Source of the DNA: a virus
Length of the DNA: 26,589 nucleotides
IMG/VR virus record: IMGVR_UViG_3300037137_002573
Location: 1 to 26,589 of that record
Direction: 5' to 3' (one strand)
Shown in pieces: positions 4,290 to 26,589 of the stretch. The notes beneath the pieces are model-generated. The model made no database searches. It was given only the letters and a program-made list of their open reading frames with translations, and was not told the origin of the DNA. Each line of letters opens with the position of its first letter. Positions within the stretch are counted from its first letter, which is position 1. A program made the translations under genes and the position numbers.

Positions 4290-5899
4290 TTCTTCACCGT
4301 GGCCTTCATGGAGGCGCTGATTTGAGCTGCGTACTCAGAGGTCGCGACCTTGACGTTCGATTTCTTGGGACGGGTATCATCGTCTCCCTTCTCGTCGTCC
4401 TTGACCCACTTCTCGATGTCCTTCATGGACGGCCGGTCGTCTAGCAGCTCGAACTTGTAGCCTGGTATGACTCGCAACGTGAAAGCGTTGAGCACACCTT
4501 CCCGATTGCCGCCGAGCACCAAAGCGATGTCGGCATAGGCCCGCCCTTGCCCTTCTCTTTCGGTCAGACGGTCGGCTAGCCAATCCATCGACAGCCTGGG
4601 GTCTCCTGGTGGCAGGTCAAGCTGTGGCCTTCCATCATAGGCGGGCCTCGGCTGCACTCGTCTTGGGGCCCTCTTGATCTTGTCGTACTCCACCTCGTAG
4701 TCCTCTTCGTGCAAACCCGCTCCTGTGCCGGGTTTCTTGAGAACTCGGATTATGAGATCAGATTCCCTGGCGATGACGTCAGCGTCTGCCATATCGGCCA
4801 GGGTGTTGCCGTAGGTCTTGTCTCCCATTCGGTTGGCCTGATGGACCGCTACGATGGGCAGCCCGATGTCCTCGGCGTATCCCTTGATGTCCTCGGCCAG
4901 GGCCGCCACCCTCTTCCACCTTTCGCTCAGGTCCTCTGACCGCTCTGAGTCCATGTGGTAGAAGCTGTCCATGTAGATGACATTGGGTCGGAACCTCGAG
5001 ACCCATGCCTTCAACCCATCCAGCTTCACCGGAGCGTCACGGCCACACAGGAGTAAGAGATCTCTGGTCCCCCGGTCTGCCCCGTAGCTCATGTCCTCCT
5101 TGGCCGCTTCCCTGGTAAGAAGGCCGTCGAAAATCCGAGTCGCCTGCTGTTCCAAGCGAGGTGGCAGAAGCCCCGCTTTGAACATCTGGTAGTCGACGTT
5201 GGCCAGAAGCGACCCCATCCTCATGGCGAGCTTCCGCTCAGACATCTCTCGGGACCAGACGAGGACTCGACAGTTGTTCACCATGAAGTCATAGGCCGCG
5301 CAGTATAGGAGGATCCAAGTCTTCATGGACTTCATGCGGCCATAGAAGACAACGAAGTCCCCGTCCCTTTTCCCCAAGGTATCCTCAGTTAGGCATTTCC
5401 ACGGCCATGCCACTCCGTAGATTGACCCCGACCGCGCGCCGGCATACTGCTCCTTGGACAACGATGCGATGTCGGACAAGCTTGTGTATTCCACGCTTTC
5501 TCCGGAGCGCTCCATCTCCAGGTCTTGAACGCGCTGACGCATGATCTTCAGAGCATTCTCTGGGTTCTCTATGACGAGCTCCTGGAAGAACTGTGCTAGC
5601 CCTCGAGCGTCGTTGTCGAACTTCGACATCTTCAGCTCGTTGATGAGCTGCTCCAGACCCTCGTACTCATCCGGAGAGTTGGCTGTCGGCACAAACGAGG
5701 GCCACCGCATCCGTACTCTCCCGATTGTAGGGAGGGTGCGGATGGTGCCTGGGCTATGCCAGAACTGGCTGATGTATTCCCAGATCCCACGGGCCTCGGC
5801 GCCTGTGAAGTGCTCCTTCTTGAGACCCTTGTGGATGGCGTCCTGAAGAGTCCCAGACTCCAAGATCTTGGTCAGGATTCGGTGCTCCAGTGCAGCCAT
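4286..5899 (-). CDS. DnaB-like replicative helicase, 537 aa
   Basis: RecA-fold helicase of the DnaB family, expected to form a hexamer that unwinds DNA ahead of the polymerase. Residues 1 to about 100 are a helical N-terminal region. The ATPase domain has a P-loop at 187-194 (GRMKSMKT), Walker B VIYMDSF with D311, and AVHQANR near 351-357, which corresponds to the DnaB motif containing the sensor Gln. The P-loop has Met where the conserved Gly before Lys-Thr is expected. The open frame extends to 6022, but the ATG at 5899 has a perfect AAGGAGG site and lies one base after the stop of the upstream gene, so I chose it. The C-terminus is charged and Lys-rich. The gene is coupled to the primase by an ATGA overlap. 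Confidence 0.88.
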   Translation of the reverse strand: MAALEHRILTKILESGTLQDAIHKGLKKEHFTGAEARGIWEYISQFWHSPGTIRTLPTIGRVRMRWPSFVPTANSPDEYEGLEQLINELKMSKFDNDARGLAQFFQELVIENPENALKIMRQRVQDLEMERSGESVEYTSLSDIASLSKEQYAGARSGSIYGVAWPWKCLTEDTLGKRDGDFVVFYGRMKSMKTWILLYCAAYDFMVNNCRVLVWSREMSERKLAMRMGSLLANVDYQMFKAGLLPPRLEQQATRIFDGLLTREAAKEDMSYGADRGTRDLLLLCGRDAPVKLDGLKAWVSRFRPNVIYMDSFYHMDSERSEDLSERWKRVAALAEDIKGYAEDIGLPIVAVHQANRMGDKTYGNTLADMADADVIARESDLIIRVLKKPGTGAGLHEEDYEVEYDKIKRAPRRVQPRPAYDGRPQLDLPPGDPRLSMDWLADRLTEREGQGRAYADIALVLGGNREGVLNAFTLRVIPGYKFELLDDRPSMKDIEKWVKDDEKGDDDTRPKKSNVKVATSEYAAQISASMKATVKK

Positions 5900-19573: not shown

Positions 19574-22500
19574 ATGGCTCACTACGCGCCTCAAGAGGCG
19601 TTCGATATCCTCAAAGATCGAGTCTCCAGTACGGTCAAGAGCTACTTCCCGATCGAAGGGCAGAAGAACGTCCTCGTGGCCAACAAGGTTTGGGTCGACG
19701 ACCACTCCGACATCGACGATATCCGTAGTCAGAAGCAAGCCAAGCTCACGGGGCGCACCTGGTCGGTACCTGTGAGGGCCGAGCTCGAGCTCCGAGACAA
19801 GGCCACCAGCAAAGTGAAGGACCGCCAGGTCGTCAACGTGGCGCAGCTCCCCAAGATTACTAGGCGTTACAGCTACATCGTCAACGGCAACGAGTGGCAG
19901 GTGAACAACCTGTTCCGCCTGAAGTCGGGCGTCTACACCCGAGTCAAGGCAAATGGGGAGCTCGTAGGGGAATGGAACCTGGCCAAAGGTGCTGGGTTCA
20001 AGATGACTCTGGACCCAGTCTCCAAGAAGATCACGATCAACCATGAGGACCAAGGTTCCAAGATTCCGCTCTACCCCATCCTCAAAACCCTTGGGGTGGA
20101 TGACGATGCCATCGAGAAACAGTGGGGCAAAGAGATCTTGTCAGCTAACAAGAACGTCAACGAAGAGGCAGCCCTCAAGACCTTCTTCAAATCTCTCAAA
20201 GGTGAGTACCCCCAGAGCGCGGACGAGGCTAAGAAATACTTGATCGAGGAGCTGGGCAAGACGGTGCTTCGTCCGGACTCCACCAAGCTCACCCTGGGAA
20301 AGGGTTTCACGCAGGTCAATGGAGAGTCCCTACTGGCTGGCTCCCACAAGATGCTGCAAGTCTCCAGGCAGGAAGCTATTCCCGATGACCGAGATTCCCT
20401 CCAGTTCAAAGACCTCTACTCCGCCGAAGACCTCATCGACGAGCGTCTTCAAAACTGGAAGACCAAGAAGGACCTCAACCGAAAGATCACCAACGTCCTC
20501 GATAAGCATGACCGCATCCGGACGGTACTCAGTCCTGACATCTTCGGACGCCCCATCAAGAACTTCTTCGTCAACAACCCATCAGGTTTGAGCGAGCGCC
20601 CCGACCAGATGAACCCCATCAGCTTCCTCTCAGGCAATCGCCGCACTACCCTCATGGCCCCTGGCGCCGGCGGCATCACGTCAGCCCACCAGGTCTCAGT
20701 CGAAGCCCAGTCCATCAACCCCAGCCATATGGGATTCCTCGATCCTATTCAGACTCCTGAAGGGGAGCGAATCGGTATCACGTTGCAGCTGGCATCCGTC
20801 GTCAGAAAGGTAGGGCACGATCTCAAGATCCCGGTCTACAACGTGAAGACCAAGAAGAGAGAGATGATAGGACCAGGAGAGGCTCTGACCTCCAACCTAG
20901 CGTTCTATGACCAGTACAACTGGACGAACGGTCATCCGGTTCCCTCGGGCAAGCTGGTCAAGGTCTCGGACAAGGAAGGCACCATCACGGTGGTCCACCC
21001 GGGGACCGTTGACTACGTTTTGACTTCCACCAAGGGAATGTTCGACCTGCCTGCCAACATGATCCCTTTCCTGCAGAGCGACCAGGGTAATCGCACTATG
21101 GTGGCCTCCCGTCAGCTCGAGCAGGCGGTACCACTGGTACACCGAGAGGCGCCGCTCGTTCAAGTCCGAAGCGATGACCCAAAAACATTCGAGAGATCGA
21201 TCGGTGAGTTTAGCAGCCACATAGCCAGAGTCGATGGGAAAGTCGAGAAGATCAGCCGGGAAGCCATCGTCATCAAGGACAAGAAGGGCAACCGGCACGA
21301 GGTGCAACTCTACGAGGACTTCCCTCTCAACGACGCAAAGAGCGTACTCAACTCGACTCCGATTGTGGCAGTGGGGGATTCCGTCAAGGCCAGACAAGTG
21401 GTTGCCGACACCAACTTCACCCGCAATGGAACCTTGGCGATCGGCACCAATCTTCGTGTCGCCTACATGCCATACAAAGGCTACAACTTCGAAGATGGCG
21501 TCGTGATCTCCGAGTCGGCTGCTACCAAGCTGACGTCTGAGCACATGCTGCGCGAGAAGGTGCGGTCTGACCCCAACACCATCCTCAACAAGAAGAAGTT
21601 CATCGCCCACACAGCGGGCCAGATCACCAAGGACCAGGCTGCCAAACTAGATGACGACGCTGTGGTGAAGCCGGGTACCCAAGTTTTCAAAGACGACGTG
21701 CTGATCGGAGTCCTCAAAGAAGAGTCCATCACGCCAGAGCAACAGAGACTCAGCCTCATCTCCAAGAAGCTCATCTCTCCGGTGCGGCCTCGGGAGATTC
21801 GATGGACTAAAGAAGGTCCAGGCGTAGTCGCCCGAGTCGTGAAGCACGGCAAAGACGTGACCGTCTATGTGAAGGCAACATCGGCGGCGGACGTGGGGGA
21901 CAAGATCGTAGGGAGGCACGGAAACAAGGGCATCATCACATCGATTCTTCCAGACCACGAGATGCCAAAGGACAAAGAAGGAAAGCACGTCGAAGTTCTT
22001 CTCAACCCTGCTGGTGTCCCTTCCCGAATCAACCTGGGGCAGGTTCTTGAAACAGCAGCCGCCAAGATTGCTGAGAAGTCGGGCAGACCTTACATCGTCA
22101 ACAACTTCGACCCGGCCATCAAGGACTACACCCGGCATCTGCAGGCCCAGTTGAAGGGCGCCGGAGTCAGCGAGACCGAAGAGCTGTTCGACCCGCAGAC
22201 CAACCGCTCGTACGGGCAGGTGCTGACCGGGCCGCAGTATATCCTCAAGCTGCACCACATGGCCGAAACGGGCCTGCAGGCTCGCTCTCGTGATGCCTAT
22301 GATTCCAACATGCAGCCCCGGAGTGGCGGCCCTCGCAGCGGTCAGACGATGGACGCTCTCGGTCTGTACGCCATGCTGGCGCACAACGCCCGTGAGAACA
22401 TTCGGGAGATGCAGACCTACAAAGCCGACATGAACGATGACTTCTGGGCAATGCTGCAGATGGGGGACTCGGTTCCCACGCCCAAGATTCCGTTCGTGTT

Positions 22501-25500
22501 CAAGAAGTTCGAGGGTTACCTCAAAGGCATGGGCATCGACCTCAAGAAGGAAGGCAACGACCTGATCCTTCAGCCTCTGACCGACAAGAGAGTCCTGGAG
22601 ATGAGCAATGGTGAGCTGCTAGACCCAGCCCGCGCTCTCCGTGCCAAGGACGCAAAGCCCGAAGTCGGTGGGGTGTTCGATCCCAAGCTCACCGGCACGT
22701 TGTGGCCGGGCGGGCAGATGGGGAACAAGTGGACCCACATCACGCTACCAGAACGAATGCCGAACCCTGTGTTCGAGACCTCCATCTCCGCCCTGTTGGG
22801 AATCACCCACGGCAACTACCAGAACGTCATCCTCGGCAAACAGAATCTTGGGGAGCACACCGGGCCCAGCGCTATCGTGAAGGCCCTCAAAGATATTGAT
22901 GTTGTCTCTACCAAGAAGGCACTGGAGAAGAGGATCCCTTCGCTCCGAACTACCAGGCTCGACAAGGCCTACAAGCAGCTCAAGTACCTGCGGGCTCTTG
23001 AGCGAGCCAGCATGTCACCGACCGAGGCCTACACGACCAAGCATCTGCCGGTGCTGCCTCCTACCATGCGGCCCGTCACCATCTTGCCCAACGGAGACAT
23101 CAACTACGACGACATCAACAGGCTCTACAACCACATCGGCACCGTCAACCACAAGATCAAAGACTTCGACCCGGCGCTCCCGCCCGAAGAAAAGATCCCG
23201 ATTCAGGCAGCCCTCTACGACGCCGTGAAGGCCCTGCATCTGACGGGCACCGTCTATCAAGGTCGGCACCGCAACTCGATTGTTGAGATGATCGCTGGTC
23301 GCAAGGGACAACAACCCAAAGAAGCCTTCTTCCAGTCCAAGATGATTGGAAAGCGCCAAGACCTGTCGTTGCGAGGCGTCATCATCCCCGAGCCGGCTAT
23401 GAGCTTGGATGAAGTCGGCCTTCCTCGTAAGGCCGCCGCTGAGCTCTTCAAACCCTTTGTTGTCCAGCGGCTCGTGTCTCAGGGCCACGCTCCTGCCGAG
23501 GCCCAGAAGATGGTGAAAGAGAACCATCCTGCGGCCGTCAGTGCGCTGGAAGCTGTGGCCTACGAGCGTCCTATTCTCCTGAAGCGTGACCCAGTGCTCC
23601 ACAAGTTTGGAGTGCAAGCCTTCCGTCCGAGGCTCACTGAGGGAAAGGCTGTCCAGATCCACCCACTCGCTACCATCGGGTACAACGCAGACTTTGATGG
23701 TGACAAGATGTCGGCCTACGTGCCGGTCAGTCCGAAGGCAGTGAAAGAAGCCTTCAAGATGATGCCGTCCCACAACCTCTTCAACCCTACAACCGGCTAC
23801 TTGATGTTCAAGCCTACCCACGAGTCTTCTCTTGGGCTGTTCAAGCTGACCGAGGTTGGGCGCCGCACAGGGAAGCGTTTTGCAACGACAGCGGACGCCG
23901 CACACGCTGCCCGAAAAGGTGAAATCAGCATCAACGATTTGATTCACATCGACGAGGTCGAGAAGGGATTGGAGGGGTTGGAGAAGATCGGGTCGTTGGC
24001 AAAGACCACGCTAGGCCGTCTTATGGTTCATCGAGCCCTTCCCGAGGAGCACCAAGATAACCGACTCCTGGTGGACCCGGATTTTGTTTTGGACAAGAAA
24101 AAACTCGATCAGGTACTTTCTTCTGTGGCAAAAAATTCACCTGGAGACTTCGGCAAGATTTCGGACCGGCTCAAGGATCTGGGCAATGAATTTGCCACCG
24201 GCATCTCGATTAGCCTCAAGGACTTCGAATCCGACTACAGCACTCGAGATCCCATCCTCCATCAGGCCAATGACCAAGAGCTGCGAATCCGGTCCTCTAT
24301 CAAGGACCCCGTCAAGCGGAACGAGAAGATCGTGCAGCTCTACATCGACGCTGGCCAGAAGATCGACAAGCTGACCAAAGCCAGAGCCGAAGTTTCTGGG
24401 AACCGCATGTATGACTGGGTGAGGTCAGGGGCCAGAGGAGATTGGGACCAATTCAAGCAGATGATAGTGGCCCCTATTCTCGTAGCTGACTCTGCCGGCA
24501 ACCCTGTCCCCATCCCCATCGGTAGGTCCTACTCGGAAGGCTTGGACATTGGGTCCTACTGGGCCGCTATGCACGGAGCCCGCATGGGCACCATCGGCAA
24601 AGTCCAAGGCACCCAGGCGCCCGGCAAGATGGCCAAGCAGCTCGCTCAGGCCACCATGAACCAGATGATCTTGGATGAAGACTGCGGCGCGAAGAAGGGC
24701 GTCACGATGCCGCTCGACGACCGAGATCTCTTGGACCGCTTCACGGCCAGCGACATCTCCCTGGGACTCAAAGGACTCGAGAAGGGCATCATCCCAGCCG
24801 GCTCCCTCGTCACTCCAGACCTGCTCAGCCGGCTGAAGAACAACAAGGTCAAGGATGTTCATGTCCGCTCTCCCTTGAAGTGCCAGCACGGGACCGGCAT
24901 GTGCGCCAAGTGCTACGGGATAGCCGAAAACGGACAGCTTCACCCCCAAGGCACCAACATCGGAATCATAGCGTCCCATTCTTTGGGAGAGCCTGCGGTA
25001 CAGCTTTCGATGAACGCTTTCCACACAGGGGGCGTCGTTGGCGCTAAAGGCACTACGGCAGAGAGCATGTTCCGAAGGCTCGAGCAGCTCCTCAACATGC
25101 CAAAGAAGCTGCCAGGCTCCGCCACGTTGTCTACGGCAGAGGGCAAGGTTGAGAAGATTGAATCCAACCCAGCGGGCGGTTGGGACGTGGTCGTTGGTGG
25201 AGACAGGCACTACGTCCCCGCCAATCGAGAGCTCGCCGTCAAGCGGGGCTCTTCGGTGAAGCCCGGGGATGCCCTCTCCAGCGGCACGAAGAACCCTCTT
25301 GAGCTGCTCAAGACTACCAAGAACATTGGGGCGGTGCAGCGGTACCTGACGGACGAGATCTGGAACGTCTACCACGACAAGAGCCCTGTCCGTAAACGCA
25401 ACATCGAGACTTTTGTTCGGGCCGTTACGAATCTTTCAGTGGTGACGGATTCGGGAGATCATCCAACTTTGCTACCTGGAGACCGCACAGCGACATCGTC

Positions 25501-25765
25501 GGTTGCCTCTTTCAACAGTCAGATTGCCGGGACAAAGAAGAAGCCAGTGGTGTATGAACCTGTCCTCCAAGGCATCAACATGCTGCCTCTGGAAATGCAG
25601 ACGGACTGGATGGCCCGGTTGCAAAGCCGAGAGCTCAAGAGCACGATCCTCGACGCGGCAGCAGAAGGGTGGCGCTCCATGCTACATGGAACCCACCCGA
25701 TACCTGGCATGGCATGGGGTAGAGAATTTGGTCTTGGTACGAAGGAGCAGCCGTGGCTTTATTGA
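19574..25765 (+). CDS. Single-chain DNA-dependent RNA polymerase, beta and beta-prime fused, 2063 aa
   Basis: Phage transcription enzyme homologous to cellular RNA polymerase. Beta part (residues 1 to about 1000): TPEGERIGI (394), YMPYKGYNFEDGVVISE (NFED at 638-641), GRHGNKG (780-786), then SGGPRSGQTM. Beta-prime part (about 1000-2063): LPVLPPTMRPV, GKRQDLSLRGVI, KRDPVLHKFGVQAF, catalytic NADFDGDK (D1373, D1375, D1377), Zn site C1704/C1770/C1777/C1780 with the same last spacings as bacterial beta-prime, and trigger loop GEPAVQLSMNAFHTGG (H1817). The N-terminal beta-prime zinc ribbon is absent. It is about 690 residues shorter than E. coli beta plus beta-prime. The ATG at 19574 has GGAG eight bases upstream. 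The C-terminus is duplicated on the next gene. Confidence 0.96.
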   Translation: MAHYAPQEAFDILKDRVSSTVKSYFPIEGQKNVLVANKVWVDDHSDIDDIRSQKQAKLTGRTWSVPVRAELELRDKATSKVKDRQVVNVAQLPKITRRYSYIVNGNEWQVNNLFRLKSGVYTRVKANGELVGEWNLAKGAGFKMTLDPVSKKITINHEDQGSKIPLYPILKTLGVDDDAIEKQWGKEILSANKNVNEEAALKTFFKSLKGEYPQSADEAKKYLIEELGKTVLRPDSTKLTLGKGFTQVNGESLLAGSHKMLQVSRQEAIPDDRDSLQFKDLYSAEDLIDERLQNWKTKKDLNRKITNVLDKHDRIRTVLSPDIFGRPIKNFFVNNPSGLSERPDQMNPISFLSGNRRTTLMAPGAGGITSAHQVSVEAQSINPSHMGFLDPIQTPEGERIGITLQLASVVRKVGHDLKIPVYNVKTKKREMIGPGEALTSNLAFYDQYNWTNGHPVPSGKLVKVSDKEGTITVVHPGTVDYVLTSTKGMFDLPANMIPFLQSDQGNRTMVASRQLEQAVPLVHREAPLVQVRSDDPKTFERSIGEFSSHIARVDGKVEKISREAIVIKDKKGNRHEVQLYEDFPLNDAKSVLNSTPIVAVGDSVKARQVVADTNFTRNGTLAIGTNLRVAYMPYKGYNFEDGVVISESAATKLTSEHMLREKVRSDPNTILNKKKFIAHTAGQITKDQAAKLDDDAVVKPGTQVFKDDVLIGVLKEESITPEQQRLSLISKKLISPVRPREIRWTKEGPGVVARVVKHGKDVTVYVKATSAADVGDKIVGRHGNKGIITSILPDHEMPKDKEGKHVEVLLNPAGVPSRINLGQVLETAAAKIAEKSGRPYIVNNFDPAIKDYTRHLQAQLKGAGVSETEELFDPQTNRSYGQVLTGPQYILKLHHMAETGLQARSRDAYDSNMQPRSGGPRSGQTMDALGLYAMLAHNARENIREMQTYKADMNDDFWAMLQMGDSVPTPKIPFVFKKFEGYLKGMGIDLKKEGNDLILQPLTDKRVLEMSNGELLDPARALRAKDAKPEVGGVFDPKLTGTLWPGGQMGNKWTHITLPERMPNPVFETSISALLGITHGNYQNVILGKQNLGEHTGPSAIVKALKDIDVVSTKKALEKRIPSLRTTRLDKAYKQLKYLRALERASMSPTEAYTTKHLPVLPPTMRPVTILPNGDINYDDINRLYNHIGTVNHKIKDFDPALPPEEKIPIQAALYDAVKALHLTGTVYQGRHRNSIVEMIAGRKGQQPKEAFFQSKMIGKRQDLSLRGVIIPEPAMSLDEVGLPRKAAAELFKPFVVQRLVSQGHAPAEAQKMVKENHPAAVSALEAVAYERPILLKRDPVLHKFGVQAFRPRLTEGKAVQIHPLATIGYNADFDGDKMSAYVPVSPKAVKEAFKMMPSHNLFNPTTGYLMFKPTHESSLGLFKLTEVGRRTGKRFATTADAAHAARKGEISINDLIHIDEVEKGLEGLEKIGSLAKTTLGRLMVHRALPEEHQDNRLLVDPDFVLDKKKLDQVLSSVAKNSPGDFGKISDRLKDLGNEFATGISISLKDFESDYSTRDPILHQANDQELRIRSSIKDPVKRNEKIVQLYIDAGQKIDKLTKARAEVSGNRMYDWVRSGARGDWDQFKQMIVAPILVADSAGNPVPIPIGRSYSEGLDIGSYWAAMHGARMGTIGKVQGTQAPGKMAKQLAQATMNQMILDEDCGAKKGVTMPLDDRDLLDRFTASDISLGLKGLEKGIIPAGSLVTPDLLSRLKNNKVKDVHVRSPLKCQHGTGMCAKCYGIAENGQLHPQGTNIGIIASHSLGEPAVQLSMNAFHTGGVVGAKGTTAESMFRRLEQLLNMPKKLPGSATLSTAEGKVEKIESNPAGGWDVVVGGDRHYVPANRELAVKRGSSVKPGDALSSGTKNPLELLKTTKNIGAVQRYLTDEIWNVYHDKSPVRKRNIETFVRAVTNLSVVTDSGDHPTLLPGDRTATSSVASFNSQIAGTKKKPVVYEPVLQGINMLPLEMQTDWMARLQSRELKSTILDAAAEGWRSMLHGTHPIPGMAWGREFGLGTKEQPWLY
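25706..25765 (+). repeat. RNA polymerase tail copy 1 (in the RNA polymerase gene)
   Basis: Sixty bases coding GMAWGREFGLGTKEQPWLY and TGA. They align without gaps to 26344-26403; by hand count 38 of 60 bases and 13 of 19 residues match. Changes such as W/Y, R/K and Q/E are conservative, so the copies are diverged homologues, not a recent exact duplication. Confidence 0.85.
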
Positions 25766-26403
25766 CATATGCAACCATGCTCACGAAGCCGGGGCCCAAG
25801 CCGAAAGACTTGACGGGGATGGTGTTTGGGCACCTCACGGCAGTTAGGCCAACTGGGAAACGAACCCGTCAAGGGGTTGTTTGGGTGGTTCGTTGCCAGT
25901 GTGGGAAGGAACTGGAGCGAGTTGCCTCCGCTCTTCTTTCGAAACCAAGGCGGCCGTCCCAGATCCCGGCATCATGCGGTTGTTTCGGAAAAAGGAATCG
26001 AAGTCCAAAGTACAAAGGGGTCGGAGACCTTTCCAGCACAAAGTTCCGTGGTATCATGGCAAAAGCCAAGCAACGGGGAATCCCTTTTGGAATCCCCATC
26101 GAATATGCTTGGAAGCTATTCCTGGCCCAAGACAAGCGATGTTCGTTGACGGGAATCCTGCTGACGCTATCTCCAAGCAGCGTAGAGGTAGGAGCCTCTA
26201 CTGCGTCTTTGGATCGCATCGACAGCTCTAAAGGGTATGTTCCTGGAAACGTACAATGGGTGCATGTCGCTATCAACTTCATGAAGCACAGCTTGCCGTT
26301 GAAAGAGTTTGTGGATTGGTGTTGCCGAGTAGCTGCGCACACGGGCATGGCCTATGGTAAGGAGTTCGGCAAGGGCACTGAAAAAGAGCCTTGGTTGTAC
26401 TGA
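25753..26403 (+). CDS. HNH homing endonuclease with a copy of the RNA polymerase C-terminus, 216 aa
   Basis: A mobile DNA nuclease. The N-terminal third carries Cys pairs RCQCGKE and SCGCFGK, a likely zinc-binding DNA-recognition unit. The catalytic part fits the phage HNH type: CSLTG, then ASLDRIDSSKGYVPGNVQWV, then INFMK. The GTG at 25753 has AAGGAG five bases upstream, inside the last codons of the RNA polymerase, and overlaps that gene by 13 bases; ATG 25777 is an alternative without a ribosome site. The last 19 residues (GMAYGKEFGKGTEKEPWLY) copy the RNA polymerase end (GMAWGREFGLGTKEQPWLY) and are not part of the usual HNH fold. This marks the insertion footprint. Confidence 0.88.
   Translation: MALLTYATMLTKPGPKPKDLTGMVFGHLTAVRPTGKRTRQGVVWVVRCQCGKELERVASALLSKPRRPSQIPASCGCFGKRNRSPKYKGVGDLSSTKFRGIMAKAKQRGIPFGIPIEYAWKLFLAQDKRCSLTGILLTLSPSSVEVGASTASLDRIDSSKGYVPGNVQWVHVAINFMKHSLPLKEFVDWCCRVAAHTGMAYGKEFGKGTEKEPWLY
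26344..26403 (+). repeat. RNA polymerase tail copy 2 (end of the HNH endonuclease gene)
   Basis: Sixty bases coding GMAYGKEFGKGTEKEPWLY and TGA, fused in frame to the HNH endonuclease. This copy lies directly before the next gene, where the native RNA polymerase end would be expected, so it may be the displaced original. See the copy at 25706-25765. Confidence 0.85.
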
Positions 26404-26405
26404 CC

Positions 26406-26589
26406 ATGAGCATTCAATCGCCAAGCCCTATTGAGGGTCGGTGGGTACCTTCCACCATCGAGACCGGGCGCATCATCAACGTCAACATTGAAGACTGGTC
26501 GGTCGACGTAGCTTCCGAGTACGCCAACAAAAGGTACTTCGATCTCCAAGTGATGATGCCGTACTTCCACTACGTCAACGGTGAAGGCT
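26406..26589 (+). CDS. Start of an unknown gene, possibly tail or baseplate (3' end outside the window)
   Basis: Only 61 codons are present. The ATG follows the HNH stop by two bases (TGACCATG), suggesting coupled translation; no strong ribosome site is visible. The fragment reads GRWVPSTIETGRIINVNIED early and PYFHYVNGEG late, a beta-rich pattern reminiscent of hub or baseplate proteins with a DxQ...PY.HxxNGEG segment. That resemblance is weak and from memory. The open frame continues past the right edge. Confidence 0.55.
   Translation, partial: MSIQSPSPIEGRWVPSTIETGRIINVNIEDWSVDVASEYANKRYFDLQVMMPYFHYVNGEG

Follow-up and report, generated by a model that had tools for sequence, protein, structure and literature searches.

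The closest precedents for the locus described here are found in fungal mitochondria. In atp6 of Allomyces, and in atp6, atp9, cox2 and nad3 of Glomus, a mobile ORF has brought in a foreign C-terminus that displaces the native one (PMC3630166). The endonuclease ORF lies near the 3′ end of the host gene, with the foreign C-terminus upstream and the native one downstream, and the displaced native C-terminus clusters with those of relatives (PMC3630166). A second group of related systems comprises the free-standing HNH endonucleases of T4-like phages, such as MobE in nrdA of Aeh1 and MobA in the topoisomerase gene of T4, which are inserted into conserved phage genes without an intron, and which split the host gene into two pieces that are both needed (PMC2988022, PMC3653736).

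The viral locus shares features with each of these. An HNH endonuclease ORF lies at the 3′ end of an RNA polymerase gene, flanked by two versions of the end of that gene, of which the right one groups with the tails of relatives. A likeness to Allomyces atp6 was drawn in an earlier note on this DNA; there too the foreign C-terminus lies upstream and the native one downstream (PMC3630166), and the divergence is similar, at 63.5% base identity for the fungal atp6 tails (PMC3630166) and 63% for those examined here. Yet the fungal mobile ORFs are mitochondrial and encode LAGLIDADG or GIY-YIG enzymes (PMC3630166), whereas here we have an HNH enzyme in phage records; the phage arrangement is therefore not a member of the fungal mitochondrial system. 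The intron-free insertion in a conserved phage gene is like that of MobE and MobA, but unlike those the replacement tail completes the host gene, leaving the old tail dispensable. In the open-licence literature we found no report of displaced native tails in phages, and the layout appears to be undescribed there.

The polymerase gene and its two tails

The window is the whole stretch of DNA analyzed, a virus record of 26,589 bases, and its largest gene encodes a fused β-β′ RNA polymerase (RNAP). The reading frame is open from 19430, upstream of the likely ATG. Pfam matches include RNA_pol_Rpb2_6 (1.1e-58) and Rpb1_2 (2.4e-27), and PHROG RNAP beta families also match. The features are as follows.

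19574..25765, + strand: fused β-β′ phage RNAP in one ORF, assigned by Pfam and PHROG; likely start ATG 19574
25706..25765, + strand: left RNAP tail GMAWGREFGLGTKEQPWLY plus TGA, the replacement, departing from the tails of relatives and in GC3
25753..26403, + strand: HNH endonuclease ORF with GTG start; its last 19 codons run through the right tail
25753..26343, + strand: HNH core, residues 1–197, conserved with two other phages (L006 and L017)
26344..26403, + strand: right RNAP tail GMAYGKEFGKGTEKEPWLY plus TGA, the native and displaced copy, in the HNH frame in the window
26406..26588, + strand: 5′ part of the downstream gene (MSIQSPSPIEGRWVPSTIETGRIINVN...), which adjoins RNAP directly in HNH-less relatives and here runs off the window

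The peptide codons of the left tail occupy 25706–25762 with the stop at 25763–25765, and those of the right tail 26344–26400 with the stop at 26401–26403. The two peptides are exactly those quoted in the earlier note, each followed by TGA, and the base identity of about 63 percent given there corresponds to 38/60 positions, with 13/19 residues identical. Scored by BLOSUM62 with the ends anchored, the match reaches 84, whereas 5,000 pairings of tails with the wrong HNH gave 34 at most; measured against shuffles, z is 14.8. The similarity between the RNAP and HNH ends is far outside chance. No direct repeat was found on searching the window for DNA repeats, because the synonymous sites of the two tails have diverged; the same codon is used at just 2 of 11 identical residues that have several codons, and an identical stretch of 8 nt remains.

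Which copy is native? The earlier note had proposed looking to the RNAP 3′ ends of HNH-less relatives for the answer. We fetched 80 loci of RNAP relatives, nine near HNH-less relatives being usable for tail comparison. The near relatives L007, L008–L012, L072 and L076 have no HNH gene and a single tail each, and wherever the ORF call is clean the same downstream gene starts at most 15 bases after RNAP. The right, HNH-side copy is the better fit (BLOSUM score) to eight of the nine. The RNAP of L007 is 75% identical to that of the window (tree columns), and its tail scores 99 against the right copy and 81 against the left; for L012 the scores are 96 and 78. The sole exception is L014 (68 against the right copy, 74 against the left). 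The left tail differs from those of the relatives at W, R, L, K and Q, and its GC3 is 0.45 compared with a mean of 0.73 for the body of RNAP, which lies at the 2.4th percentile. Given the closeness of the relatives' tails to the right copy and the odd GC3 of the left one, the comparison indicates that the right copy is the original RNAP end, and the left a replacement. This is the arrangement that had been claimed, with the original tail beside the downstream gene. No donor for the left tail of the window came to light.

Some of these relatives show other rearrangements. The RNAP frames of L072, L076 and L077 are about 400 residues longer than those of relatives with the homology interrupted, probably by inteins in β′. 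The RNAPs of L015 and L080 are nearly identical, yet their last residues and the next gene differ, so that exchange seems to occur at the RNAP 3′ end even where there is no HNH gene. In L015 a cargo gene is flanked by an exact repeat that spans the end of RNAP and the start of the next gene (4464–4510 and 5300–5346). We considered this as a further duplication of the RNAP tail and rejected it, as an exact repeat of ~46 nt around a cargo gene with HNH absent.

The RNAP ORF of the window is full length, having a tail and stop of its own, and the host gene is not divided into two needed parts. A search of the window against Rfam found neither a group I or II intron nor any other match, and with the ORF filling the insert the HNH gene is free-standing, outside an intron or intein; RNAP is complete without either, as the earlier note had it. 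We therefore find it barely credible that the HNH ORF belongs to a group I intron or intein that has degenerated, with the true 3′ exon in the right tail. RNR, ThyA and polymerase genes are classic intron and intein targets, the same kinds of gene being targeted by the phage endonucleases encoded within these elements, and some of the RNAP and RNR genes studied here appear to contain inteins. But nothing is missing on the left side, where tail and stop are both present, intein ends are not seen around HNH, and introns were found neither in the window nor in an Rfam search of 15 comparable loci (below) at gathering thresholds.

The HNH gene and its occurrence in other RNAP genes

The GTG start of the HNH ORF at 25753 lies within the left tail, overlapping the tail and its stop. 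In L006 there is an ATG at the aligned residue, with the same overlap (MALL...). PHROG endonuclease/HNH families match the protein at 3e-21 to 2e-14, while searches of Pfam and NCBIfam with the protein, and of PDB sequences with the HNH profile, found no match. In an AlphaFold model (mean pLDDT 86) the core is ordered, with a ββα HNH arrangement near residues 151–177; by contrast the pLDDT is about 48–53 for residues 201–216, nearly all of which belong to the tail. Among solved structures the core of the model best matches PacI HNH (VIA Z 7.2) and the Geobacter (Gme) HNH nickase (Z 6.1), both of these being middling values, and Foldseek with the model gave middling HNH matches at most. From the PHROG matches and the likeness of the model to PacI and the Gme nickase the protein is assigned to the HNH (His-Me finger) nucleases, as a predicted member. 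Residues 153–157 are LDRID, placing arginine where the first catalytic histidine is usual, and this is nearly invariant in 43 relatives. Since the usual histidine is replaced (DRID), the putative nuclease activity is taken as an assumption.

A close-relative search with HNH alone gave one other phage, and so wider alignments were used. The core is 69% identical to that of L006 (tail excluded) and 55% to that of L017. In L006 the HNH gene is found at the same position of RNAP as in the window, even though the two RNAPs are only 42% identical. The RNAP of L006 ends VHGAEVGRGDKPWLY, while the DNA behind the HNH core encodes VHGAEIGKGKHPWEY in the RNAP frame. The HNH ORF crosses this displaced tail in another frame, ending ...WGRDWQGQASMGVLT. 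The native ending PWEY matches those of its own relatives (HWEY in L019, PWEY in L024), and the left tail ends PWLY like that of the element in the window; 14 nt are still identical between the two tails of L006. Its RNAP beta part (L006:3-170) has in addition an apparent intein C-terminus (VYCVDVPNHIVYVRRNGVPVWSGN/C) before IIPDHEMP.

The HNH gene of L017 begins directly after the RNAP stop and ends without a tail relic, so that some insertions may be plain intergenic ones; its sister L016 has no HNH gene. On an RNAP tree from which the tail was omitted, the three phages with HNH (window, L006 and L017) are scattered, and well-supported branches force three separate HNH changes. Some relatives thus have an occupied site and others an empty one, in a sporadic distribution.

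The RNAP-like tail might serve the HNH protein in some function, such as binding a partner by mimicry of the RNAP C-terminus, and it is in frame in the window, as are tails fused at reductase and thymidylate synthase loci (below). We think this very improbable. In L006 the displaced tail is out of the HNH frame, and is therefore a relic and not a domain of HNH; in L017 it is absent; at L099, L150 and L177 it lies behind the HNH stop. Moreover, the tail is always that of the local upstream gene, and in the AlphaFold model it is of low confidence.

Probable tail swaps at other phage genes

How general is this arrangement? HNH relatives from phage records and viral contigs gave 142 distinct loci among the matches listed, 126 of them with an upstream ORF; these are the most similar loci and not a random sample. 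We compared the C-terminus encoded by each upstream gene with the peptides that end at the stops immediately following the HNH core, anchoring the ends. Among the matches listed, 18 of the 126 loci carry a copy of the upstream tail scoring at least 24 (0.76 expected), and nine score at least 30 (0.15 expected). The expectation comes from mismatched loci, and it is conservative because many of these share a host gene family. The reading of the window as a tail swap is supported and generalized: what the earlier note treated as a single oddity is recurrent. That note held that unrelated HNH proteins sharing one end peptide would speak against it. They do not share one, for each ends in, or precedes, the tail of its own upstream gene.

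The host genes include class II ribonucleotide reductase (RNR), thymidylate synthase (ThyA) and dUTPase (FGSTG motif), and a separate test added a methyltransferase (MTase) of Lactococcus 936 phages; together with RNAP these are the hosts of the phage system, in which tails can be as short as ~5 codons. At ThyA the right copies are NPTIKAEVAV and DYDPHPAIKGQVAV. At most of the loci HNH runs in frame into the relic, with in-frame fusions at RNR and ThyA, and in a reductase-like gene (L175) the native tail into which HNH continues in frame exceeds 40 residues. At L099, L150 and L177 the relic follows the HNH stop. Several of the matched tails are merely 4–8 residues long and rest on statistics. 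Neither local alignment nor the end-anchored test captures every case: L099 and L175 were seen only by local alignment, and L177 only with a longer downstream window. High local-alignment scores at L173, L158 and L184 were rejected as low-complexity chance.

Three loci have further features. The RNR-like gene of L175 (2-400), the same gene as has the swapped tail, has a match below cut-off to an intein splicing domain (Pfam PF14890). The HNH protein of L177 (2498-3331) has an extra C-terminal region of ~100 residues ahead of the displaced RNR tail. In the crAss-like phage cr111_1 (L092:3204-3671 and 4667-5101) the annotation gives a flavin-dependent thymidylate synthase in two pieces, with an HNH relative between them; this gene is split, not tail-swapped.

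Ordinary modular recombination at gene ends might have made such chimeras, with HNH as passenger and not driver. RNAP ends do exchange where there is no HNH, as in the tail and next gene of L015 and L080. However, many genes that are unrelated have a tail copy directly after the HNH core, and the same HNH is found at the same RNAP position in distant lineages; we regard a passenger role as unlikely.

Alleles that are empty, occupied and scarred are found in the Lactococcus 936 phages. In PhiM1127 and phi93 an N6/N4 DNA methyltransferase with a foreign tail is followed by HNH and then by the native tail. MP1 has one native methyltransferase tail and no HNH, and from base 2242 (relic through downstream genes) PhiM1127 is identical to it for 1,518 bases. 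Relic and empty allele are identical, whereas the left tail shows differences along its whole length and makes the protein 12 residues longer; 16 nt are still identical between the two tails. Three phages have lost HNH. Phi40 has the foreign tail and half of the relic, in phi145 the foreign tail is joined to the end of the relic, and in phi109 (L103:781-1518) a crossover between swapped tail and relic at the common 16-base stretch has left the MTase frameshifted and truncated. These three alleles are the expected products of insertion followed by loss of HNH.

The HNH gene HNHPhi93-3 beside M.Phi93I, which belongs to the tail-swap set, was already described together with an active MTase (PMC4190342); the portion of that article available notes the gene and makes no mention of a duplicated tail or relic. 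Phi93 DNA is not cut readily by HphI, to which it is resistant, and DNA is also protected from this enzyme by cloned M.Phi145I (PMC4190342), so swapped-tail methyltransferases work. The activity of M.Phi93I and M.Phi145I (PMC4190342) also lends indirect support to expression of a hybrid transcript, as in the fungal system.

These alleles bear on whether there is anything foreign in the left tail at all. In a plain duplication the 3′ end of the gene would be duplicated on insertion, like a target site, and one copy would then diverge. The short identical stretches between copies (8 nt in the window, 14 nt in L006, 16 nt in the 936 phages) could be read in this way. Yet the unused right copy should decay first, and it is the right copy that is well conserved; the synonymous sites are saturated; and in the 936 phages the relic matches the empty allele exactly, the differences and the 12 added residues lying in the left tail. 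We consider a duplication decidedly unlikely. Saturation is also what remains of the earlier claim that the tail is recoded. At 16 loci the left and right tails have 37 of 92 codons in common where the residues agree, compared with 44.5 for independent draws, so the divergence of the tails is saturated, while selection for recoding is a weak trend that is not clear.

A proposed mechanism and its implications

We think it highly probable that the HNH gene, together with a foreign and diverged copy of the tail, inserted into the last ~20 codons of RNAP and displaced the native tail, most likely by cutting and homing. The inserted unit would be ~638 bp, comprising the replacement tail and the HNH gene. 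During co-infection HNH would nick or cut the native tail of an HNH-less phage, and repair by recombination with the HNH-bearing phage would copy in the unit, using the body of RNAP as its left arm and, for the right arm, the native tail together with the downstream gene. The replacement tail completes RNAP, keeping it intact without intron or intein, and the displaced native tail is a relic, adding 19 residues to HNH if the frames coincide, as in the window, and meaningless otherwise, as in L006. Unlike the endonucleases encoded by introns and inteins there would be no splicing element, repair being made via the coding tail that is carried. The new allele should resist HNH, its target being split in two by the insert and its left tail being different. 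The 14–16 identical bases in L006 and the 936 phages mean that the replacement is not fully recoded, and hence any immunity rests on part of the tail. In MP1 the cut would be expected near GGTTCAGGA/ACAACAGC in the 3′ end of the methyltransferase gene, with the swapped tail uncut.

On balance we favor the broader view that tail-swap cassettes are general mobile elements of phages that dispense with splicing, carrying a cleavage-resistant 3′ end, exchanging the C-termini of essential enzymes between lineages and leaving scars when lost. If this is true, such a cassette allows HNH to lodge in C-terminal motifs that are essential, in the genes for RNR, ThyA, dUTPase, RNAP and methyltransferase. 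Besides introns and inteins, this would give free-standing endonucleases a third way of settling in a conserved essential site while the host gene survives. It would account for the short peptides of the upstream gene that so often end the phage HNH proteins of this family and are annotated as part of the nuclease. In conserved enzymes that serve as phage markers, such as RNAP, RNR and ThyA, C-terminal exchange and scars are to be expected. The Lactococcus 936 phages, with their empty, occupied and scarred alleles, provide a cultured system in which homing, immunity to cleavage and loss are directly testable.
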